From NCBI GenBank assembly GCA_963922205.1, contig CAWUHX010000124.1, forward strand, positions 434,001 through 498,000: 64,000 nucleotides of DNA. The letters are read 5' to 3'. Positions 51,388 through 64,000 of this stretch are shown here, piece by piece (position 1 is the first letter of the stretch; each line of letters opens with the position of its first letter). The notes beneath the pieces were generated by a model, which was not told where the DNA came from, did no database searches, and worked only from the letters and a program-made list of their open reading frames with translations. Source of the DNA: Romanomermis culicivorax (lineage: Eukaryota; Nematoda; Enoplea; Mermithida; Mermithidae). The translations under genes and the position numbers were made by a program.

Positions 51388-52762
51388 AACCAATGTTTTT
51401 CCGCAAGTCGCTCATTTTTCAAACCTAATTGCATGTCTATTGCGCCGCTAAATGTTTTCTAAATGTTAAATTGTTTTCGACGTATGAATTATAAGGTTTT
51501 TTGGTTATACATGTACATTGTTTCTTCTCATTGCGGCAATTCTTGGCGGAAGTCTGTATCTATTTTTTGTCTTGTATGTCCATAAAAATTGCTTTGCAGA
51601 TTTGCCTTAGAATAGTGTATTGTAGGTTTTATCTCCACTGTACTGTGGGAAACTTCGGAACGCCTGCAGCAGGAGTGGCTTTCCTAAGGGTTTCTTAAGA
51701 CAGTACCATCGAAAAGTTGTTTGTTACAGTCGATTAGAAAAGCTTCATCGTGAACGAGTGGTAATCGTGCAAACTATACTCCATTTTATTTTGGCATGAG
51801 CGATGCACCGATTCCATAGTAGTATAAGAAAAACACTATAACTCTTGTAATTTGAAATGATGGACGGAGCTAAGACCAAAATAGTAGGTTCAATTTGATA
51901 CGCAATTGAAAACTTATTGTAAAAAATGGTTAAGATCTTTACTTTTTTCTTTCTGGTTTCACCACTATTCAGCGAAAAACACAATAGCGAGACTCAATAC
52001 AGTGATTTGAAACAGTGAAGTCTCAAAATGGCGAACTTTCGAAAAATTATCTTTAGAATGGGAAAATGGATATTGGGCGCGTAGGCGTTTTGGCGCATGG
52101 TCCATTTAGTCCTCCACTTCGACCTGGTGGATGCTAAATGTCACATCACGTCTTGGCACGAATCGTCAGATTTCTCATTGTTTTCACGACATTACTGTTT
52201 TTTATTCTGGTTTGTTCTTTACTAACATATCTACATGCATGTTTTTTGTTTCTTTTTTCCTTTATTGACTTATTCCCTTTTATACTCTTCTTATTTTGAG
52301 CCACTTTTTGTTTAATTTTTTCAGGTTGTATACTTTCTATTTTTACGTTTACCTACTTTATATCACCTGATTTTACTTTTTATTTCTTTATTATTTGTTG
52401 GCCTTTACTGCTCAATTATTTTATTCATTTCATCTTATTTGCTTATTTCATTATTTTTTTCAATTAAGCTCCATTCAAAACAACTTTGATCGGGAATCCT
52501 TACGATAATTTTGTTTTCGTTTTTTTTTCAAACGTTTCGCAAAAATATTTCTTTCACAGATGTTTTTTGTGATTTTGGAATGGTCCGTTCGTGCATACCT
52601 ACCGCAATTGCAGCACAGAAGCCATCTGAAACCTAGATGGCTAAATGAAAATAAAAATAGATCAACTAGCAGAAATGGTTTCAATATACATAATTTGCAT
52701 ATGCATTATAAAAATGATGTTTGCGTTTACTGTAACGCATAGAACTTTTTACTATTCGCTGT
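51388..52762. other. 3' flank of RRM gene B; pyrimidine-rich tract
   Basis: No gene seen. 52190-52470 is strongly T-rich (many TTT and CTT runs, few purines). The LTR retrotransposon is inserted at 52762/52763. Confidence 0.5.
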
Positions 52763-53375
52763 TGTTGGGGATGTGCTTACGGCAGTAGCAATCCCACATC
52801 TATGCAAAATTGGTGAATCGACAAAGTTACGATTCCACCAAAAAGGAAGAAAACATTATTATTATTCGTGTTTACCTTCGCAATTTTGGTGTGTTTCGGG
52901 CGAGTCGCGTCCGTTATAAATTGTATTGTACTGTTTCGCCTAGTAAAGGCAGACGCTGACAGCCCCACACCATATTTGCATAATATTATTATAATAATTA
53001 TTTATTATTTATACGATTATTATTACTCACGCATTGAGCGGTTGGAGGGAGTCGTCTTACATGGGAGCCAAGCCAAGGTGAAGCCCCAGTCCTTTTGGAT
53101 ATTATCGAAGTGAGTTCTGTGTATTTGTGTGAACCTTTAGGAGGCATCTGGGGAGACCCTGAGTGCCCTTCGATTGCAAGAGTTAGAGTTTCCAGTTACT
53201 TATTAGTGACTGAAGGTTGTGTTTATTTCTGCTTAAGGACTGTTGCACTGTGTTCAGTTGATTGCTAGTAGGAAGCTCCTTTGAGTGACCTACAGTAGTC
53301 GATTGAGTACAAGCCGATAGGACTTGAGTTATATTGCTGACATCTTCGGATCTAAGCAGAGAAGTAAACATAACA
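52763..53375 (+). repeat. 5' LTR, 613 bp
   Basis: Starts TGTTGGGGATG, ends AACATAACA (TG...CA). End point is set by the TG...CA rule and by the primer-like site two bases later. Contains TATAAA at 52915-52920 and an AT-rich hairpin-like stretch (ATAATATTATTATAATAATT near 52980). Confidence 0.88.
52915..52920 (+). promoter_or_regulatory. probable TATA box in 5' LTR
   Basis: TATAAA in CCGTTATAAATTG, within U3-like sequence. The same hexamer is kept in the 3' LTR at 63761-63766. Confidence 0.45.
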
Positions 53376-53468: not shown

Positions 53469-53631
53469 AATGTCCAAAAATGCTGAGGATTTAGCCTCTG
53501 GTACGACTTTACCGAGGACTCCGCCTGGTGTAAGGCATGATGAGTCGGATAAATCTTTCCCACTGCCCGTGTACATGCACATGGTTACATACAATTCAAA
53601 ATGCATTGTGAATTCGGAGTTTTCTTGGTGA
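53469..53631 (+). pseudogene. possible gag N-terminal scrap, out of frame with pol
   Basis: The first ATG after the LTR opens a short frame (MSKNAEDLASGTTLPRTPPG) that ends at 53629-53631. It overlaps the pol frame but in a different phase. Position and start fit the beginning of gag, with the rest lost; too short for family recognition. Confidence 0.35.
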
Positions 53632-56600
53632 AAGCCATAATCATTCCTAATGCGGAGGAAAATCTCATAATTGGAACGGATTTCTTAGCACATCCGGATG
53701 TTGGAGCAATGATAGATTTTGGTAAAGGTATCATGAAACTTAATGGAGTTGAGAAAGCTATAAGTGTTGTACCTAAAGATCACGCGAGTCATATACAAGC
53801 TATTGATTGTATAGGGGAAGCACCTATAGTACATTCAAGTCCTGAAGAGGATCAATACCCCAGGATCTGCCAATTAGGTATAGTGGTTCCAGTGGTATCA
53901 TGTACGAAAGTATACGTACCACACGGAACTGATGTGCTTATTAAGGCAAGGTTATGGGAACGATCGTCTAAAACAGATCTCGATTGTTTGGTCATAGATG
54001 GAAATAAAGAAGAAAAGAAATTCAGAGTTGATAGCACACTGGTTGATGGTAAACGGGAAGACTTTGTTCTGATGATTTCGAATAATACGGGTTCCGGATG
54101 CCAATTGCAACCTAACCAGGTTGTAGGCTACTGTGACTCAATATTACAAGAAAATTCAGGAGTATCAGATGTACAAAGTATGAGTTGTGAGATATTTAGT
54201 GTTGAAGATAATTTTAATGCCACTCCCAGAATGTCCGTGCATGATGCATTGACATTTAGGGAAGCGCTATATAAAATGATCTCCAAGGCTGATATCAATG
54301 AGGAATTAAAGGAAACAGCTGTAGCAAAACTGTCTAAATACAGGGATGTTTTCAGCTTACCCAATGATCCCCTAACTACAACACCGTATCTTACGTGCAA
54401 AATTGATACTGGTAATGCAATGCCAGTGGCAAAACATTATTACAGAGCTCCCATTAACCAAAGATCAGGGATTAGAGCTCAAGTCCAAGACATGTTAGAT
54501 AAAGGAGTTATTGAACCCAGCCGGTCACCGTGGGCTGCTCCACTTTTCCTAGTTGGGAAAAAGGACGGTTCCACGAGACCAGTTGTGGATTTCAGAGGTA
54601 TAAATGAGGTTACTAAGGACGATAGGTACCCTATACCTAGAATGGATGATTATTTGGATTGTCTAGGTAATGCCAAATTTTATACCACATTGGATCTAAA
54701 GTCTGGATATTGGCAAGTCCCACTTGAGGAGAGTAGCAAGGAGAAAACTGCATTTATATGTCAGGAAGGCCTATATCAGTTTAAAGTTATGCCTTTCGGA
54801 CTTAAAAATGCACCTGCAGAGTTTCAGAGAATGATGGAGAGAGTGTTGCATGGTCTAGTCTGGAGAATCTGCCTAGTGTATATTGATGATATCATTGTGT
54901 TCTCCAAAACTTATGAGGAACATTTGGAGAATTTAGAGTTGGTCTTGCAAGCTTTTCGGAAAGCAAAGCTAACACTTAAACCGGAGAAGTGCGAATTTCT
55001 TCCAAAAAGTGTTCATTTTCTTGGACACATACTGGACGAAAATGGAATCTCACCAGATCCGAAAAAAGTGAAGGCTATTACGGAATTCGAATTTCCCAAT
55101 AGCGTTAAGCGTATGCAACGATTTCTGGGGATACTGCAATGGTGTAAGAAATTTATCCCAAACCTTGCAAATCTTGCAGAACCGTTGTATAAGCTTACCG
55201 CTACAGGGAAGAAGAAGTTCCAAGCAACAGAGGAACATCGCCAAGCGTTTGAGAAACTGAAAAAAGCACTCACCTCAGTGCCATTTCTACGGTATCCTGT
55301 TTTGGATGGAACTGCGGAGTTCATTCTCCAAACAGATGCCAGTGGAACCGCACTGGGAGCAGTACTTTATCAGAAGACTAAAGATGACCAATGGGTAATA
55401 GCCTATAGCAGCCGAATCCTTAAGGAAGACGAGAGGAAGTGGTGTGCTACAGAGCGAGAATGCCTAGCGGTTGTCTATGGTCTTAAAGTTTACCGACACT
55501 ATTTGTTTGGGCAAAAAGTATTGATCAAAACTGATCATAAACCTCTCTTATCTATGAAAGTAAATACTCAAACCAATGATAAATTGAAAAGATGGTATTC
55601 CATTATAAATCAATTCAATCATAGGTTGGAGTATGTGCCCGGTAGACAAAACGCAATGGCCGATTTTCTCTCAAGAAAAGATGAACCCGAAGACGCTAAG
55701 GACAAAAACCCACCAAAATGGGAATATGTCTTCAAAATTCAATTTCGTAATTTTGGAACTCAAACCAATGAAATTGAAAGCCAAATATTGGTACAACAAT
55801 ATCAGAGAATGAGGGACGAAGAAGTTGAAAGTAGAGATGAAAAAATTGTCCCCAAGCAGACCGAGGAATTGACGGATATCCAGGAATTGACGGTAACAAA
55901 AGACAATATTGCACCAACTACCAAAGATGTATTGCAGAGCAGAAATGAAATGCAGAAGCTTACGGTAGTTGATGCAGTCACAACTAGAAGACAAGCAAAA
56001 CTTCAGGATCAGAGTGCACAAAATCAAGAACAGGGTACATCTGTACCAATTGATCCTGAAAACATTGCTTGGCTTTTCCCGAATAGAGAAAAGGAGTTTG
56101 AAGAGGTGAAGGAAGGAGAAAAGGAGGAGAAGGATGATGATAAGATCGATTATCCAATTGATCTAAAGGTTATCGCTCAGTTGCAAAAAGAAGACACTAA
56201 TCTTACCCCAATTTGGGAAAGATTAGGGGTCAAAAGCACTACGAAGTATCATAGTGGATTCTATGAGGATAACGGAGTTCTTTATAGGGAAACTGAGGGA
56301 CGTGGCCATGATCAGATCGTGGTCCCGAATTCCCTCAGAGACAGCATACTTCACCAATATCACGGAGCCGTTATAATGACACACCAAGGGTTCAAAAGAA
56401 CTCTGGGTATTGTCAAACAGCGGTTCTGGTGGCCTGGCATTGAAAAAGATTTCAGAAATTTGTTGAAGTTTTGCCCTGTCTGCCAAGTGGCTACTCCCGG
56501 TAAAAGCTCCATATCCCCATTGATACCCATTATACCGGAGGGTCCCTTCGATATTGTGTCTGTGGACATAGTAGGGATTGCTCCCTTGAGGGAACGTCGC

Positions 56601-57431
56601 CCATATGTCATTGTCTTTCAGGATTATTTCACTAAATGGGTTGAAGCTATATTGATTCCTGATCAGACGGCTGAAACCATAGTGGATGCATTCTTAGAGC
56701 ATGTGATATTTAGGCACGGTACCCCAAGAAAACTTCTTAGTGATAACGGATCTGGATTTAATTCAGATCTTATGAAAGCAGTCTGTAAACTGTTAGAGTG
56801 CAGAAAAATTTTCACAACGGCATACCACCCACAGGGTAATGGTATGGTTGAGAGATTTAACCAAACTCTGATAAAGCAGCTGCGAAAAGTTGCAATTGAG
56901 GATAACAATAAATGGCCAAGGTACCTCAGTGCAGTGGTATTTGCATATAATGCCACACCTCACGCAGCAACGAAATGCTCGCCATTTTCACTGCTGCGGG
57001 GGCATGAAGCTAATTTTGGTATCAATTTCACTGCTGCTCTTAGAATAGTCATGCCTAATGACTATGAGGCTTACAAGTATGTTTTGGCTACCCATCTTAC
57101 AAATTTGTACGAAAGTATTGCCGAAAACATACAAAAAGCCGCTAAGGACAGCAAGAAATATTTTGATAACAAAATTAAAACTTCTGGTTTTAAAAATCAA
57201 GATTGGGTTCTGTTGAAAGTAGACAGACAGAAAAAATTGGGGTTACCTTGGCAAGGACCATATATCATCATCGATGATAAAAGATTGAAAGACAATGTGC
57301 TCACAATAGCCCATTGGAACAACCTGCTTAAAAAGCAGGTCGTATCGGCAAAGGCTAAAACACTTTCGATACGAAGGTACCAGATGGTCTCGACACGAAA
57401 AGTTGCAGGTCTTCCGGGATACTCCAGTTAA
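53601..57431 (+). CDS. pol: retrotransposon Pol: partial protease, RT, RNase H, integrase
   Basis: Ty3/gypsy-type polyprotein that copies element RNA into DNA and integrates it. From the first ATG: residues 1-40 are the C-terminal half of an aspartic protease (ENLIIGTDFLAHPD); the frame is open back to 53553, but no D[S/T]G active site is present. RT about 280-475 (MLDKGVIEPSRSPWAAP, catalytic YIDD at 427-430). RNase H about 574-695 (FILQTDASG with Asp579). Integrase: zinc knuckle His921, His928, Cys958, Cys961; catalytic Asp989, Asp1048, Glu1084, giving D,D35E; C-terminal WQGPYII at 1217 (GPY/F module). Between RNase H and integrase is a charged linker. RT, RNase H and integrase look intact with no stop. 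No chromodomain and no env seen. With half the protease and almost all of gag gone, this copy should need help in trans. Confidence 0.95.
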   Translation: MHCEFGVFLVKAIIIPNAEENLIIGTDFLAHPDVGAMIDFGKGIMKLNGVEKAISVVPKDHASHIQAIDCIGEAPIVHSSPEEDQYPRICQLGIVVPVVSCTKVYVPHGTDVLIKARLWERSSKTDLDCLVIDGNKEEKKFRVDSTLVDGKREDFVLMISNNTGSGCQLQPNQVVGYCDSILQENSGVSDVQSMSCEIFSVEDNFNATPRMSVHDALTFREALYKMISKADINEELKETAVAKLSKYRDVFSLPNDPLTTTPYLTCKIDTGNAMPVAKHYYRAPINQRSGIRAQVQDMLDKGVIEPSRSPWAAPLFLVGKKDGSTRPVVDFRGINEVTKDDRYPIPRMDDYLDCLGNAKFYTTLDLKSGYWQVPLEESSKEKTAFICQEGLYQFKVMPFGLKNAPAEFQRMMERVLHGLVWRICLVYIDDIIVFSKTYEEHLENLELVLQAFRKAKLTLKPEKCEFLPKSVHFLGHILDENGISPDPKKVKAITEFEFPNSVKRMQRFLGILQWCKKFIPNLANLAEPLYKLTATGKKKFQATEEHRQAFEKLKKALTSVPFLRYPVLDGTAEFILQTDASGTALGAVLYQKTKDDQWVIAYSSRILKEDERKWCATERECLAVVYGLKVYRHYLFGQKVLIKTDHKPLLSMKVNTQTNDKLKRWYSIINQFNHRLEYVPGRQNAMADFLSRKDEPEDAKDKNPPKWEYVFKIQFRNFGTQTNEIESQILVQQYQRMRDEEVESRDEKIVPKQTEELTDIQELTVTKDNIAPTTKDVLQSRNEMQKLTVVDAVTTRRQAKLQDQSAQNQEQGTSVPIDPENIAWLFPNREKEFEEVKEGEKEEKDDDKIDYPIDLKVIAQLQKEDTNLTPIWERLGVKSTTKYHSGFYEDNGVLYRETEGRGHDQIVVPNSLRDSILHQYHGAVIMTHQGFKRTLGIVKQRFWWPGIEKDFRNLLKFCPVCQVATPGKSSISPLIPIIPEGPFDIVSVDIVGIAPLRERRPYVIVFQDYFTKWVEAILIPDQTAETIVDAFLEHVIFRHGTPRKLLSDNGSGFNSDLMKAVCKLLECRKIFTTAYHPQGNGMVERFNQTLIKQLRKVAIEDNNKWPRYLSAVVFAYNATPHAATKCSPFSLLRGHEANFGINFTAALRIVMPNDYEAYKYVLATHLTNLYESIAENIQKAAKDSKKYFDNKIKTSGFKNQDWVLLKVDRQKKLGLPWQGPYIIIDDKRLKDNVLTIAHWNNLLKKQVVSAKAKTLSIRRYQMVSTRKVAGLPGYSS

Positions 57432-57909: not shown

Positions 57910-60900
57910 ATGTCGAAATTAGGCGTTGCGCCTTTCGCGCGAAATTATTGCGCACACGCCGACCACATCAAGGCGGGCCAACCGCAAGGCCGCCAAAACA
58001 ATCGTTATTTTTTGACCGACGGTAAGTTTTTATTTAATTATTTCTTGGTATGTGGGACGAATTCGCCCATTTAGGTGTCTTAGGAATGATTTCTTCACGC
58101 TCAATTTTCTGAATGGGCCAACCAAGGGGAAAACGAGTTCGAAGAAAAGTTTCTAAAAATGTTAGGATAGGTGAAAAGAAAAAACCTAATGGATTTACGG
58201 CCCTAAAAAGCCAAAGTCTAATGGTTTTTACCTTGGATCCGATTCCGAAGCATTTATTTTTGGTTTTATTAAAGCCCCTGGTTTACTAAATTTATTTCTT
58301 GGATTAATTAAAACCTCAATTGGTTATTTATTCATTACTTAATTTTGGTACCGAGGCGTGAAGTTATCGCTAGGGTAAGTGGTAAATTGACGGCGGCCGA
58401 CGTCGAGAAGCGAAAGGTGGTGCAGATGTGAGGTTCCTGAAAAATTGGTGTAGCATTTGCGCTAACCACTGGGCCTGCTTACTTTATGACTTTGACACCT
58501 AACCTCACTAATTAATTTATTTTTCCCCACGCTAAATCTTTTTCCTAATTTGGTGCCGGTCAAAGTTGATTATTTATTTGGTGGTGGTGGCCTAATGCCT
58601 GATTTATAAAGGGTCAAGGGGCGAATTCTTTTTGATTTTTAGACTACAACATCAAGTGTCTGGTCCGCGTCGGAGAAATCGAACAATGGTTCGCCGGCGC
58701 GATGGGTTATTGGCCGCAACGACCAATGGAACCTGAACGGGTTCACGGTAGCAACGTCGAACCGATCCTGAAGCAATTGGCCACAAGCCAGTTTCGGGGG
58801 CTAGGCGTTGTCGGATTTGACGTAGAAAAGGTCAAGAAGACTGAGGTATGTATTATACCTTATAAGGTAGCGATCCAGAACCCGGAAGGGAAAGAGTTCG
58901 CTAGGCTGGTGTCATTTGTACACATAGATGGTTCCAGCTTTGTGATCGACCTTACAACATTGAAGCCGCAGGAATGGGATCTTTTGATTTCATTCCTGGC
59001 ATCGGTGGATCGTTTCTTGGTTGGTTTCAAAGTTGTGGACGATCTGGTTGCAATTTTGAACGTCTACGGATCCGGGTCAGGGGCCTCGGCTCATGATAAG
59101 AGGAAAATTATACAGGCCCGTATACTCCAAGGATTTGGAAAATATTGGGACTGTGAAATTTGCGTCAGATTGATGACGGGGCCCATGGCCAATCACGCTC
59201 GTGATCTAGGATTGTGTCCTGAAAACCTTGGGTTAAAAGGACTTTTCACCGAATTTTACTTGGCTGATGTCGGCAAATACCAATGCGACTTCGGTGACAA
59301 AAAGATTCGAGAAAAGTTCTTGGCCCCCAAGATTCAAGACACAGAAATTGTGTATGCTGGCCTGGACGCCTATTATTCAATTGCCGTATTTTTAGGGTTC
59401 TTTCACTACGGGTTTTGCGGTGAATTGAGTGGGGTTACGGCAACGTACCCCCATGATATTGTATCGCCAGCCCAAGTGAAGACCTTGGCCTTCCGCTTTT
59501 ATATGGTGTACTCTCAAGACCTAACGGGGTTCGAGGATCGAAACTTCGTAGATGAGAAGGACATCGTAAAGAGGCAGTTGTTCAAGGTCTACCATATGAT
59601 GCGGCAAGAGGTAATGGCTAGGTGGGCTACACAATTTCATAATGACTTGCCAGAATATTCGTGTCCTGGGGATATTAAAAATCCCGCTAAAGCTACGGAC
59701 CACACTTTACTGTCTGGGGTTTATCCCAAGGCGCTAAAAGCTGGTCCAAGCAAAAAGAAAACAAATCAGTGGGAAGACGTAAGTGATCCAGAGGACATGG
59801 ATACAATGGAACAACAAGTCAATAGGACAAACGAGGTGATAAACCGACTGCATACAGAAATGTTGCAAGGGGTTTCATTTTTCAAATTGACGGATCCTGT
59901 GGATGTTGTATGGTATATCACAGCCGGTCTTGCCATGAATAAGACTCCTCGACAGGACTGGTCGAAGCAGCTTCAATCGTTTCAACTTGGAACGGACTGC
60001 TACGAACCAGTGGAAATCGACACCGGTATGGCTAAGTACGACAGGGATCACTGGATGGCGGACTTGAGGAATTACGAGCATGTCATGGACTCAACAAAGT
60101 TTCCTGCGTTGGAAAAGGCATGCAACCTAATTCCTCTACCATTCTTTGTTTTCTGGCCTCATAGCCGTGCCGAGTACGATTACATACTGAGGGAATTATT
60201 GAATTATAATTTCCTCAAATCCTACTCGAAGGAGGATGCAGAGTTAATAAAGAAGATGGCATGGAAGACCGATGACAGGGTTTTACAGAATTACGACATA
60301 GTAGCATCCTTACCGCCAACGGAACCTGAACATGCTGTAAAAGGCAAAAGGGTTAGGACCTGGCAAAATAGGTTTGGTTTTATGCCTATTCGGTTGCGCT
60401 TGCGCAACAAAATAGGTTCTCCAATTTCGACGGAAAAAGCAAAGGACAATATTACCCATAACAAGGATTATTGGGCCAACTGCTTTTTCTACGTCAGATT
60501 CTACTATGCGGAATTCGGTAGTAAAACCCCGTCACTGCGATATGGCCTATCACCAGACACGCCTACTCTTCATACGGGTCAGATCAGATGTATACCGGCT
60601 GATTATCCGTTGTATACTATTGAATTTCCTGAAAAGTGTATTCACCGGAGGCCTCTGCCGTCGGAATTACCCATGGTTACCTATTCATACGGTAATCAAA
60701 CCAAACAATCCGATTTCAGGACGAAATCCGATATACTAGACCCTGATAATGAACCCACAGTTCAAACGGGTCTAGTGGACGAGGACGTCACGGAATTGGA
60801 AAGTGAGGATGAGGATAATTCCGCACTCCTGGGAGAGGAAAGCTGCAAGGAGGTTGACGACGAAGACGCATTATTGTATATTTCGATCGCCGACCCCCAA

Positions 60901-62625
60901 GTAGCCGAATCTGCGGTGACAGCACCTTCTGTCACGCAGTTGCAACCGCAACCACAAGTTGTGACGCAGCTGCAGACGGAAATGCTGCCGCTGCCGCCTG
61001 GCTTACCTATGCTACAAGTCACACAAACATCTATGGATGCGAGTCAGTACTTGTCTAGCGTAGAAAGTCAAGCGCAATCGGAAGAAATTCCGATTACCCA
61101 GGATGAGCAGAACGTCTATGATCAGGCATATATTAATGAGTACATGGATGCCGAAGGTGGAAAGAAGAAGGAGGAAGAGCAGACGGCAGGGACACCTAGC
61201 CATACTGTGGTGGAAACACCACAAGAGCTAGCGGCCCGGCTGGCTGAAGAGGATAAGGAAATTCAAGTATTAGCCTTGACCTGGGACAAAGAAGGTGTTC
61301 CCGGATACTATACTGCTGAGGCGATAAAAAATATGAAAATAAAAGGACTAAATGATAGGCAAATTTTCGTTAACTTGAAAAAGAAACGAAAAACAAAAGC
61401 CCGTCAGGAGAAGAAAAAGGTGGAAAAGGCAATTGCGCAGCCTGCAAAGGTTACGCAGCCGAAACCCGCCAAAACTTCTGCTCCGGCTTCAGCAACGGTA
61501 TCCGTGACCACCGTATCTTCAACTACTCCTGTGTCGCAGACTGTCTCTACAGGTACTTTATCGATGGCAACGAGTCAGTCTACGCAATTTGTGTCGCAGG
61601 CTACGGACACCTCTGCTTCCGGACGGCGTCAGCCTAAGGTGCAGGGAGCTCCTAGCAAGCCACAGGTTGCAGGACAAAAAGTTCAAATCTTTACACCAGG
61701 AAAGATAAAGCCGTTAACTCTGATTACTGTTGACCCAAATCAACAAACACCAGAAATGACGGTGGAGTTATTCCGGGATGTATTGTTGGACTTTTGGCAA
61801 GTAACCAAAGATAAAAGTAGAGCCAGAGGTCCAATTTCTTTCGCTACACCGGAATTGGCTAATTATTTCTGCGACGAGCAGTTCGAAGATCCAGAGATTT
61901 GGCTGATGGTCAATAAAGCGGTCAGGACTATATACAAACTGTATCAGCCACAGTTTGATGTCCAAGGTGGATTTTTATACGACTCGCGAAATATTCCAGA
62001 GCCACTATGGGATAGGATCATTCGTGAGATTGTCCTTGAATGGCTCACGGAATATCGAGCGAGTGTCGTATTTGCAGCTGTCAGATATTTGTGTATGATG
62101 ATATTCCTTATGCTTGACTATGCACCACTTACGGCTGAGCAGATCGGTAAACGATCGGTCTCAGCCAAAGTGTTTGCAAACATCATGCTGTTACAGGAAT
62201 ATCGGAGTGCCACTGCTTCGGATGTTTTCAAGACTGCCTATCGCTTGGTGATGTATAATTACAGTCAACAAGCGGCGGAAATGGATGTCAAAAGGTCAGG
62301 TAGCCCAAGTCCTCCGACTACTGTTAAATTTAGCAAAGTTCAGAACGATGCGGGACAGACCTTTCGGGCACCCGGACCCGCAAGCAGTCAAACTGGTGGT
62401 CAAGGAGCCACGGTTGGTATAGCCAACCAGGTCTTCGCTGGCCCCAATTCTGGCACTGGGCAAGCCTCCAGAACCCTTCCGAAACAACAGCAACCTATAC
62501 AGCATCTACAGGGTGCTAGGGGAGCTCGTGGAGGACGGGGAAGGGGTGCCCAACCAGGCCAGTTTCATTTTAACAATCCGAACAGGGGCAGAGCTGGTTA
62601 CGTTGGTGGCCGAGGTATATACTGA
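57910..62625 (+). CDS. element-borne DEDDy 3'-5' exonuclease protein with RG-rich tail (spliced)
   Basis: CDS is exon 57910-58021 plus 58643-62625, 1364 residues. The junction fits: codon G/AC is split by a GT-AG intron and the frame continues. Residues about 85-300 form an RNase D/WRN-like exonuclease: ExoI GFDVE (Asp97, Glu99), ExoII VGFKVVDD (Asp171), ExoIII YAGLD (Tyr275, Asp279), so all DEDDy residues are present; LGLKGLFTEF matches the family's mid-domain helix. 300-745 is of unknown fold; 747-785 is acidic; 949-967 is Lys/Arg-rich (KKKRKTKARQEKKKVEK); about 1052-1252 looks helical with Trp/Tyr/Leu; 1329 to the end is Arg/Gly-rich (GARGGRGRG). Role is inferred: RNA or DNA 3'-end processing, or proofreading of RT products, with the RG tail binding nucleic acid. 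It lies in the env position but has no signal peptide or clear membrane anchor. The TGA end may be a mutation (26 similar codons follow). Exonuclease assignment is firm; function in the element is not known. Confidence 0.85.
58022..58642 (+). other. intron inside the retrotransposon's second gene
   Basis: Donor G|GTAAGTTTT, acceptor TTTTGATTTTTAG|A, 621 bp with in-frame stops. Its removal joins MSKLGVAPFARNYCAH...FLTD to DYNIKCLVRVGEIEQWF without a break. Confidence 0.8.
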
Positions 62626-62706
62626 GGACAACACCCTCGTGGTGCATTCCGAGGTCGCGGAGGTCATCAACAAGGCCAGCAGCAAGGCGGCGGGCAGCAA
62701 CAATAA
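62626..62706 (+). other. in-frame continuation of the RG/Q-rich tail after TGA
   Basis: After the TGA at 62623-62625 the same frame runs 26 codons to TAA at 62704-62706, reading GQHPRGAFRGRGG then mostly Gln and Gly. The composition continues the preceding tail. Confidence 0.65.
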
Positions 62707-63608: not shown

Positions 63609-64000
63609 TGTTGGGGATGTGCTTACGGCAGTAGCAATCCCACATCTATGCAAAATTGGTGAATCGACAAAGTTACGATTCCACCAAAAAGGAAGAAAAC
63701 ATTATTATTATTCGTGTTTACCTTCGCAATTTTGGTGTGTTTCGGGCGAGTCGCATCCGTTATAAATTGTATTGTACTGTTTCGCCTAGTAAAGGCAGAC
63801 GCTGACAGCCCCACACCATATTTGCATAATATTATTATAATAATTATTTATTATTTATACGATTATTATTACTCGCGCATTGAGCGGTTGGAGGGAGTCG
63901 TCTTACACGGGAGCCAAGCCAAGGTGAAGCCCCAGTCCTTTTGGATATTATCGAAGTGAGTTCTGTGTATTTGTGTGAACCTTTAGGAGGCATCTGGGGA
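63609..64000 (+). repeat. 3' LTR, cut by window end
   Basis: The first 392 bases match the 5' LTR without gaps. Three differences: 5' LTR G52909 versus A63755, A53029 versus G63875, T53061 versus C63907 (approximate positions). Confidence 0.93.

Follow-up and report, generated by a model that had tools for sequence, protein, structure and literature searches.

Long terminal repeat (LTR) retrotransposons with a DEDDy exonuclease gene behind pol have been described in bdelloid rotifers, where such third open reading frames (ORF3s) occur in the Juno and Vesta elements and also in the Athena/Terminon elements (Rodriguez, Kenefick and Arkhipova 2017, PMC5408684). According to the sections of that paper drawn on here, splicing typically produces the messages for rotifer ORF3s, their possible involvement in silencing and in the processing of 3' ends has already been raised, and variation was mostly neutral in the ORF3 types sequenced there (env and GDSL). 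We analysed a window of 64,000 nucleotides from the mosquito-parasitic mermithid nematode Romanomermis culicivorax (assembly GCA_963922205.1, contig CAWUHX010000124.1, positions 434,001 to 498,000), which contains a member of an LTR retrotransposon family in which an additional, third gene follows pol, and which is of Ty3/gypsy type by its paired LTRs, target-site duplication and domain order. On balance, ORF3 of this element is probably translated from a spliced message into a DEDDy-like 3'-5' exonuclease that binds RNA. The original prediction, which knew of no described element with this layout, has to be corrected on that point, because DEDDy ORF3s are known in the rotifer LTR elements (PMC5408684, in the sections used), and the present family is not the first with such an extra gene. 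What appears from the sequence to be new is the nematode host, the fusion of the putative nuclease to a stretch of about 1,000 more residues whose end is RG-rich, and a signal of selection.

The closest counterparts are Juno1, Juno2, Vesta2 and Vesta5, which are also LTR elements with gag-pol followed by a DEDDy-type ORF3; the present family was likened to them by motif, position and description. Apart from the hosts, a nematode here and bdelloid rotifers there, the two groups differ in copy number, with more than 100 matches in the present genome where a Juno or Vesta family has on average one or two full-length copies, and in the motif residues, which are the usual acidic ones here whereas DEED is reported for the rotifer elements. 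A dUTPase lies between protease and reverse transcriptase in all Juno and Vesta elements, whereas a Pfam scan of pieces of the present family, read up to E 1, gave no dUTPase match (rotifer data from the same sections of PMC5408684). The present family is further set apart by an exonuclease that Pfam does not detect, by its long extra C-terminal region and by the selection signal. The Athena/Terminon Penelope-like elements of bdelloid rotifers resemble it as retroelements with a DEDDy exonuclease among their accessory ORFs, but they are not LTR elements, reach up to 40 kb and are telomere-associated, as described in the part of PMC6431247 that was available. In the open-licence PMC literature, no paper was found on an exonuclease-bearing retrotransposon in Romanomermis, and the word 'exonuclease' does not occur in the retrieved portion of the paper on the R. 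culicivorax long-read assembly (359.1 Mb in 595 scaffolds; PMC10879605).

All coordinates below are those of the window, and the LTRs, pol and every part of ORF3 lie on its forward strand. ORF3 begins with an ATG in exon 1 (57910..58021; 37 codons and one base), followed by a predicted GT-AG intron of 621 bp (58022..58642) and by exon 2 (58643..62625). The exons join in frame, and the predicted spliced product of the window copy has 1364 amino acids, in agreement with the gene model originally proposed. Conservation of these sites was followed in 41 aligned copies, namely the window copy and 40 others ranked by how similar their exonuclease part is: the ATG and the GT donor are each kept in 40/41 and the AG acceptor in 41/41. 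The exon-2 frame of the window copy (1329 residues) is 27 codons shorter than the 1356-residue frame of many other copies, which run on to about 62706. For variant counts 36 of the 41 copies were kept, five being dropped for truncation or divergence, and 17 of the 36 have no stop or gap up to about exon-2 codon 1320, a count to which insertions relative to the window are invisible. The predicted protein would carry the DEDDy-like exonuclease domain near its N-terminus (58735..59440), followed by about 1,000 further residues that include a conserved, hydrophobic and probably helical C-terminal domain (61699..62292) and a Q/G/P-rich tail with an RG-rich end (62293..62625). RG-rich composition is usual for RNA binding, and nucleic-acid binding by the tail is suggested by composition only. 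The middle part had no match in Pfam and PDB searches, and the C-terminal domain had no Pfam match above the cut-off and no relevant PDB match.

The exonuclease call is made by motif. The predicted spliced protein contains an ExoI D-x-E, an ExoII D and an ExoIII Y-x3-D (positions 97, 99, 171, 275 and 279), and these residues, all noticed in the original prediction, are invariant in 41/41 aligned copies. Their order and spacing are those of Escherichia coli RNase D and of a second multicopy exonuclease family of R. culicivorax described below. A pattern of the motif triad, written after the sequence had been seen, matched the real protein once and none of 20000 shuffles. RNase D, WRN and the EXD family are cellular DEDDy exonucleases, and the comparison made here was with RNase D. 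Compared with these cellular enzymes (Pfam DNA_pol_A_exo1), ORF3 is too divergent for Pfam and is embedded in the 1364-residue protein of a mobile element. Weighing these motifs together with the negative searches given below, we consider it very probable that the domain is of the DEDDy exonuclease type.

That the gene belongs to the element was apparent from a search of the genome (359,112,060 bases in 595 contigs). The exonuclease part gave at least 135 scored matches, some of them fragments, across many contigs, and the integrase at least 112. Among the 112 integrase matches listed, 93 are followed on the same strand, at 1.5-4 kb, by an exonuclease match, and in 87 of these 93 pairs the spacing is 2250-2350 bp. 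ORF3 travels with the element, and copies of the family lacking the gene, which had been named as the observation that would speak against a captured gene, were mostly not seen. The explanation that a host gene lies by chance between two LTRs was rejected: it has to face the number of matches over many contigs, their near-fixed distance to the integrase and a pair of LTRs that stem from one insertion bounded by a target-site duplication, and its probability is negligible.

To assess constraint, variants present in at least two of the 36 copies (shared variants) were scored as synonymous or replacement; shared variants mostly date from the time of element activity, and singletons mostly from later decay. 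The synonymous:replacement counts of shared variants were 32:15 in the exonuclease part, 72:30 in the middle part, 47:21 in the linker, 29:4 in the C-terminal domain, which has the lowest share of replacements, and 7:8 in the tail, as compared with 10:19, 7:22 and 11:14 for the intron read in three frames as a control. Fisher tests were made against each intron frame singly, since the three frames overlap, and pooled tests, which count the same variants three times, were not relied on. The p values for the three frames were 0.005, 3e-4 and 0.076 for the exonuclease part, 9e-4, 1e-5 and 0.018 for the middle part, 2e-5, 4e-7 and 5e-4 for the C-terminal domain, and from 5e-5 to 0.032 for the linker. 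Replacements were also rarer among shared variants than among singletons (p 3e-9), as expected from selection during activity and decay after insertion. Exon 1 had shared variants of 6:1 in its own frame, against 2:6 and 0:6 when it was read in either alternative frame, and gag, in 11 copies, had 37:8, similar to ORF3. Because shared variants are depleted of amino-acid changes compared with the intron, selection probably keeps ORF3, in line with the proposal that the element retains its captured gene. As a separate observation, CpG transitions account for 18 of 42 variants among copies in 57911-58020 and for 60 of 134 in 58645-59460, a share that would fit methylation of the element.

A number of results weigh against a selected exonuclease made from a spliced message. 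The profile check proposed with the original prediction came out negative: neither Pfam nor NCBIfam nor PHROGs recognised the exonuclease part, and its hhalign scores were weak, being reached by 5/300 shuffles against the second R. culicivorax exonuclease family and by 37/300 against E. coli RNase D, the latter not significant. A PDB sequence search returned alcohol dehydrogenases and one other protein at E 0.067 or worse, and ORF3 had no protein-database match at E <= 0.01 among 7999 scored candidates. Two single-sequence AlphaFold models were poor (mean pLDDT 37 and 39), and Foldseek with these low-confidence models gave no match at E <= 0.001. Among the selection tests, one of the three contrasts between exonuclease and intron frames was not significant (p 0.076), the RG-rich tail shows no sign of constraint with its 7:8 (p 0.18 to 1 against single intron frames), and a protease/5' pol piece reached only 10:8 in 11 copies. 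The ranking of copies by exonuclease similarity favours conservation in that part, although not in the middle and C-terminal parts. As to the linkage with the element, 19 of the 112 integrase matches listed have no listed exonuclease partner, one of the 19 being near a contig end; one of the 19, on contig C159 (604563-605576), has an open frame of 2245 residues and is possibly a copy without ORF3. Finally, the spliced message and its protein are predicted from the genome sequence alone.

The negative library searches and weak hhalign scores would all be accounted for if the three motifs were coincidental and the domain not a DEDDy exonuclease, and this explanation also draws on a low-confidence model in which ExoI lies outside any strand. 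Motif order, spacing and invariance speak against it, however, and the strands and helix that the same model places between ExoI and ExoII are compatible with the fold, so that we regard coincidence as improbable. The exonuclease identity originally proposed is supported by motifs and invariance, but a profile or fold match did not come forward. Scans of viral contigs gave no result, and attempts at a broad RNase D profile were too narrow and remained unused (best 120 of 5059 sequences, 87-100% identical; 80 loci, 74-99%).

Regarding function, for which the original prediction had offered trimming or proofreading of cDNA, processing of RNA and a blunting of small-RNA defence as candidates, we propose that ORF3 would be expressed from a spliced subgenomic message, and that the unspliced RNA, which would retain the intron, would serve both as the genome to be copied and as the gag-pol message. 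The RG-rich tail may bind nucleic acid, and the protein would act in trans as a 3'-5' nuclease within the element ribonucleoprotein, where it would most likely trim RNA or cDNA of the element at the 3' end. Since ORF3 stands apart from gag-pol and contains an intron itself, splicing of its message and action of its protein in trans are the simplest reading. The main rival to such 3'-end processing is the blunting of small-RNA silencing, in which the nuclease would degrade or trim host small RNAs or double-stranded RNA (dsRNA) directed against the element, by analogy with the DEDDh nuclease of the arenavirus nucleoprotein (NP). This role would suit a protein that is made separately, acts in trans and is under selection, and the DEDD nuclease of Lassa virus degrades dsRNA, as stated in the part of PMC3429428 consulted. 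Since piRNAs, PRG-1 and 5'-triphosphorylated small RNAs are reported as not found in R. culicivorax (PMC4323106, in the portion used), silencing in this nematode would use small RNAs other than these, and any small-RNA target of ORF3 would belong to another class. No finding here, however, ties ORF3 to small RNAs, none of the data having covered them, and counter-defence appears possible but clearly less likely than trimming of the element's own ends.

It is also conceivable, but unlikely, that catalysis has been lost and that the domain now binds RNA or forms part of the particle, in the way suggested for Maelstrom and EXD1, which the sections used of the rotifer paper cite as inactive DEDD derivatives (PMC5408684). 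The share of replacements, lower in the C-terminal domain than in the exonuclease part, would agree with such a loss, whereas the retention of every motif residue in 41/41 copies would not. An even less probable variant of the proposed role is that ORF3 combines a nuclease with a second protein of nucleocapsid type, in which the helical domain and the RG-rich tail would place the exonuclease in the particle to edit or trim the 3' ends of growing cDNA; if so, this LTR retrotransposon would possess an enzyme for proofreading or end-polishing that it had gained separately from the rotifer elements. Very unlikely is a replacement of an envelope protein, which is suggested by the position of ORF3 behind pol, the usual place of env genes, by its intron and by one strongly hydrophobic stretch (best 19-residue hydropathy 2.16, at residue 1177). 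This stretch contains an arginine, five of the six best windows overlap at residues 1176-1180 while the sixth (1.73) falls in the exonuclease part, and the nuclease motifs point elsewhere. Trimming of the element's own 3' ends by a trans-acting ORF3 protein is the role we favour.

The element that carries ORF3 is bounded by LTRs, as originally noted, and these are 613 bp long. The 5' LTR (TGTT...AACA; 52763..53375) is identical at 610/613 positions to the 3' LTR, which begins at 63609, crosses the window end (63609..64000 within the window) and reaches contig position 498221. The target-site duplication CTGT (52759..52762) adjoins the outer ends of both LTRs, its partner lying directly 3' of the 3' LTR, beyond the window. 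A second copy, on contig C33, has the 4-bp duplication ATTT on both sides; over 618 positions, 2 substitutions and 2 gap positions separate its two LTRs. The remaining pol of the window copy (53553..57431) is an open frame covering the protease end, reverse transcriptase, RNase H and integrase, with Pfam matches in the order RVT_1, RT_RNaseH, Integrase_H2C2 and rve. In a fuller copy (L012) an aspartic protease precedes the reverse transcriptase (Pfam), which gives the order protease, reverse transcriptase, RNase H, integrase. In other copies gag lies ahead of pol, as judged by position and by a Cys/His knuckle that visual inspection of L012 revealed; a Pfam scan of this copy gave no gag match.

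By comparison with other 5' regions, the window copy has an internal deletion of about 2.57 kb at 53571 (junction 53571..53572); the missing segment comprises gag and the first part of the protease and is present in 11/11 other 5' regions read. A family without gag, in which ORF3 itself would be gag, was considered and rejected on the same count. The window copy is a recent insertion but, because this segment is missing, a defective one; the original description of a young copy with a long ORF is therefore borne out by the three differences between its LTRs but qualified by the deletion and by an ORF3 that ends 27 codons early. Among 40 scored LTR matches in the genome, ten pairs are 13.37-13.43 kb apart, which provides the further LTR-bounded copies that had been proposed as a check. 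The spacing in the window is only 10.85 kb, owing to the deletion, and other pairs are 11.4 kb (C138), 6.1 kb (C237) and 30 kb (C188) apart. The window integrase query (56340-57428) has 363 residues, most other copies match it to about residue 339, and the end of the pol frame seems from these alignments to differ between the window copy and the others. Elsewhere in the window, two other long ORFs had no Pfam match, an Rfam scan of the window gave no matches, and nested inverted repeats (5563-5850/6835-7122, 88% complementary; 6128-6299/6445-6616, 91%) are possibly the remnant of a DNA transposon.

The other multicopy family of 3'-5' exonucleases in this genome, the second one mentioned above, comprises 91 loci recognised by PF01612, with frames often of about 305 or 608 residues; some of these loci may be ordinary host exonucleases. 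It shares with ORF3 the genome, the multicopy state and the three motifs, but differs in sequence and in being recognised by PF01612. Its relatives at E <= 0.001 among 8000 scored database proteins numbered 19, all from R. culicivorax and named '3'-5' exonuclease domain-containing protein' in UniRef. A BEL-type protease lies within 20 kb of 3/91 loci, the nearest at 12 kb (56 of 61 BEL matches used), and none of the 91 comes closer than 10 kb to the window family, of which 39 of 154 loci were used. Another very numerous integrase-bearing family, with open frames of 2305 residues, dominates the best 150 of 5844 integrase candidates.

With the present family, accessory exonucleases in LTR retrotransposons would be known beyond bdelloid rotifers, in a nematode and in a family of high copy number. 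Its selection signal suggests that the element benefits from the extra gene, which is not reported in the sections used of the rotifer study (PMC5408684). With the second multicopy exonuclease family it becomes testable whether mobile elements have used such nucleases repeatedly, and the many near-intact copies of the ORF3-bearing element make tests of expression and small RNAs feasible on existing data.

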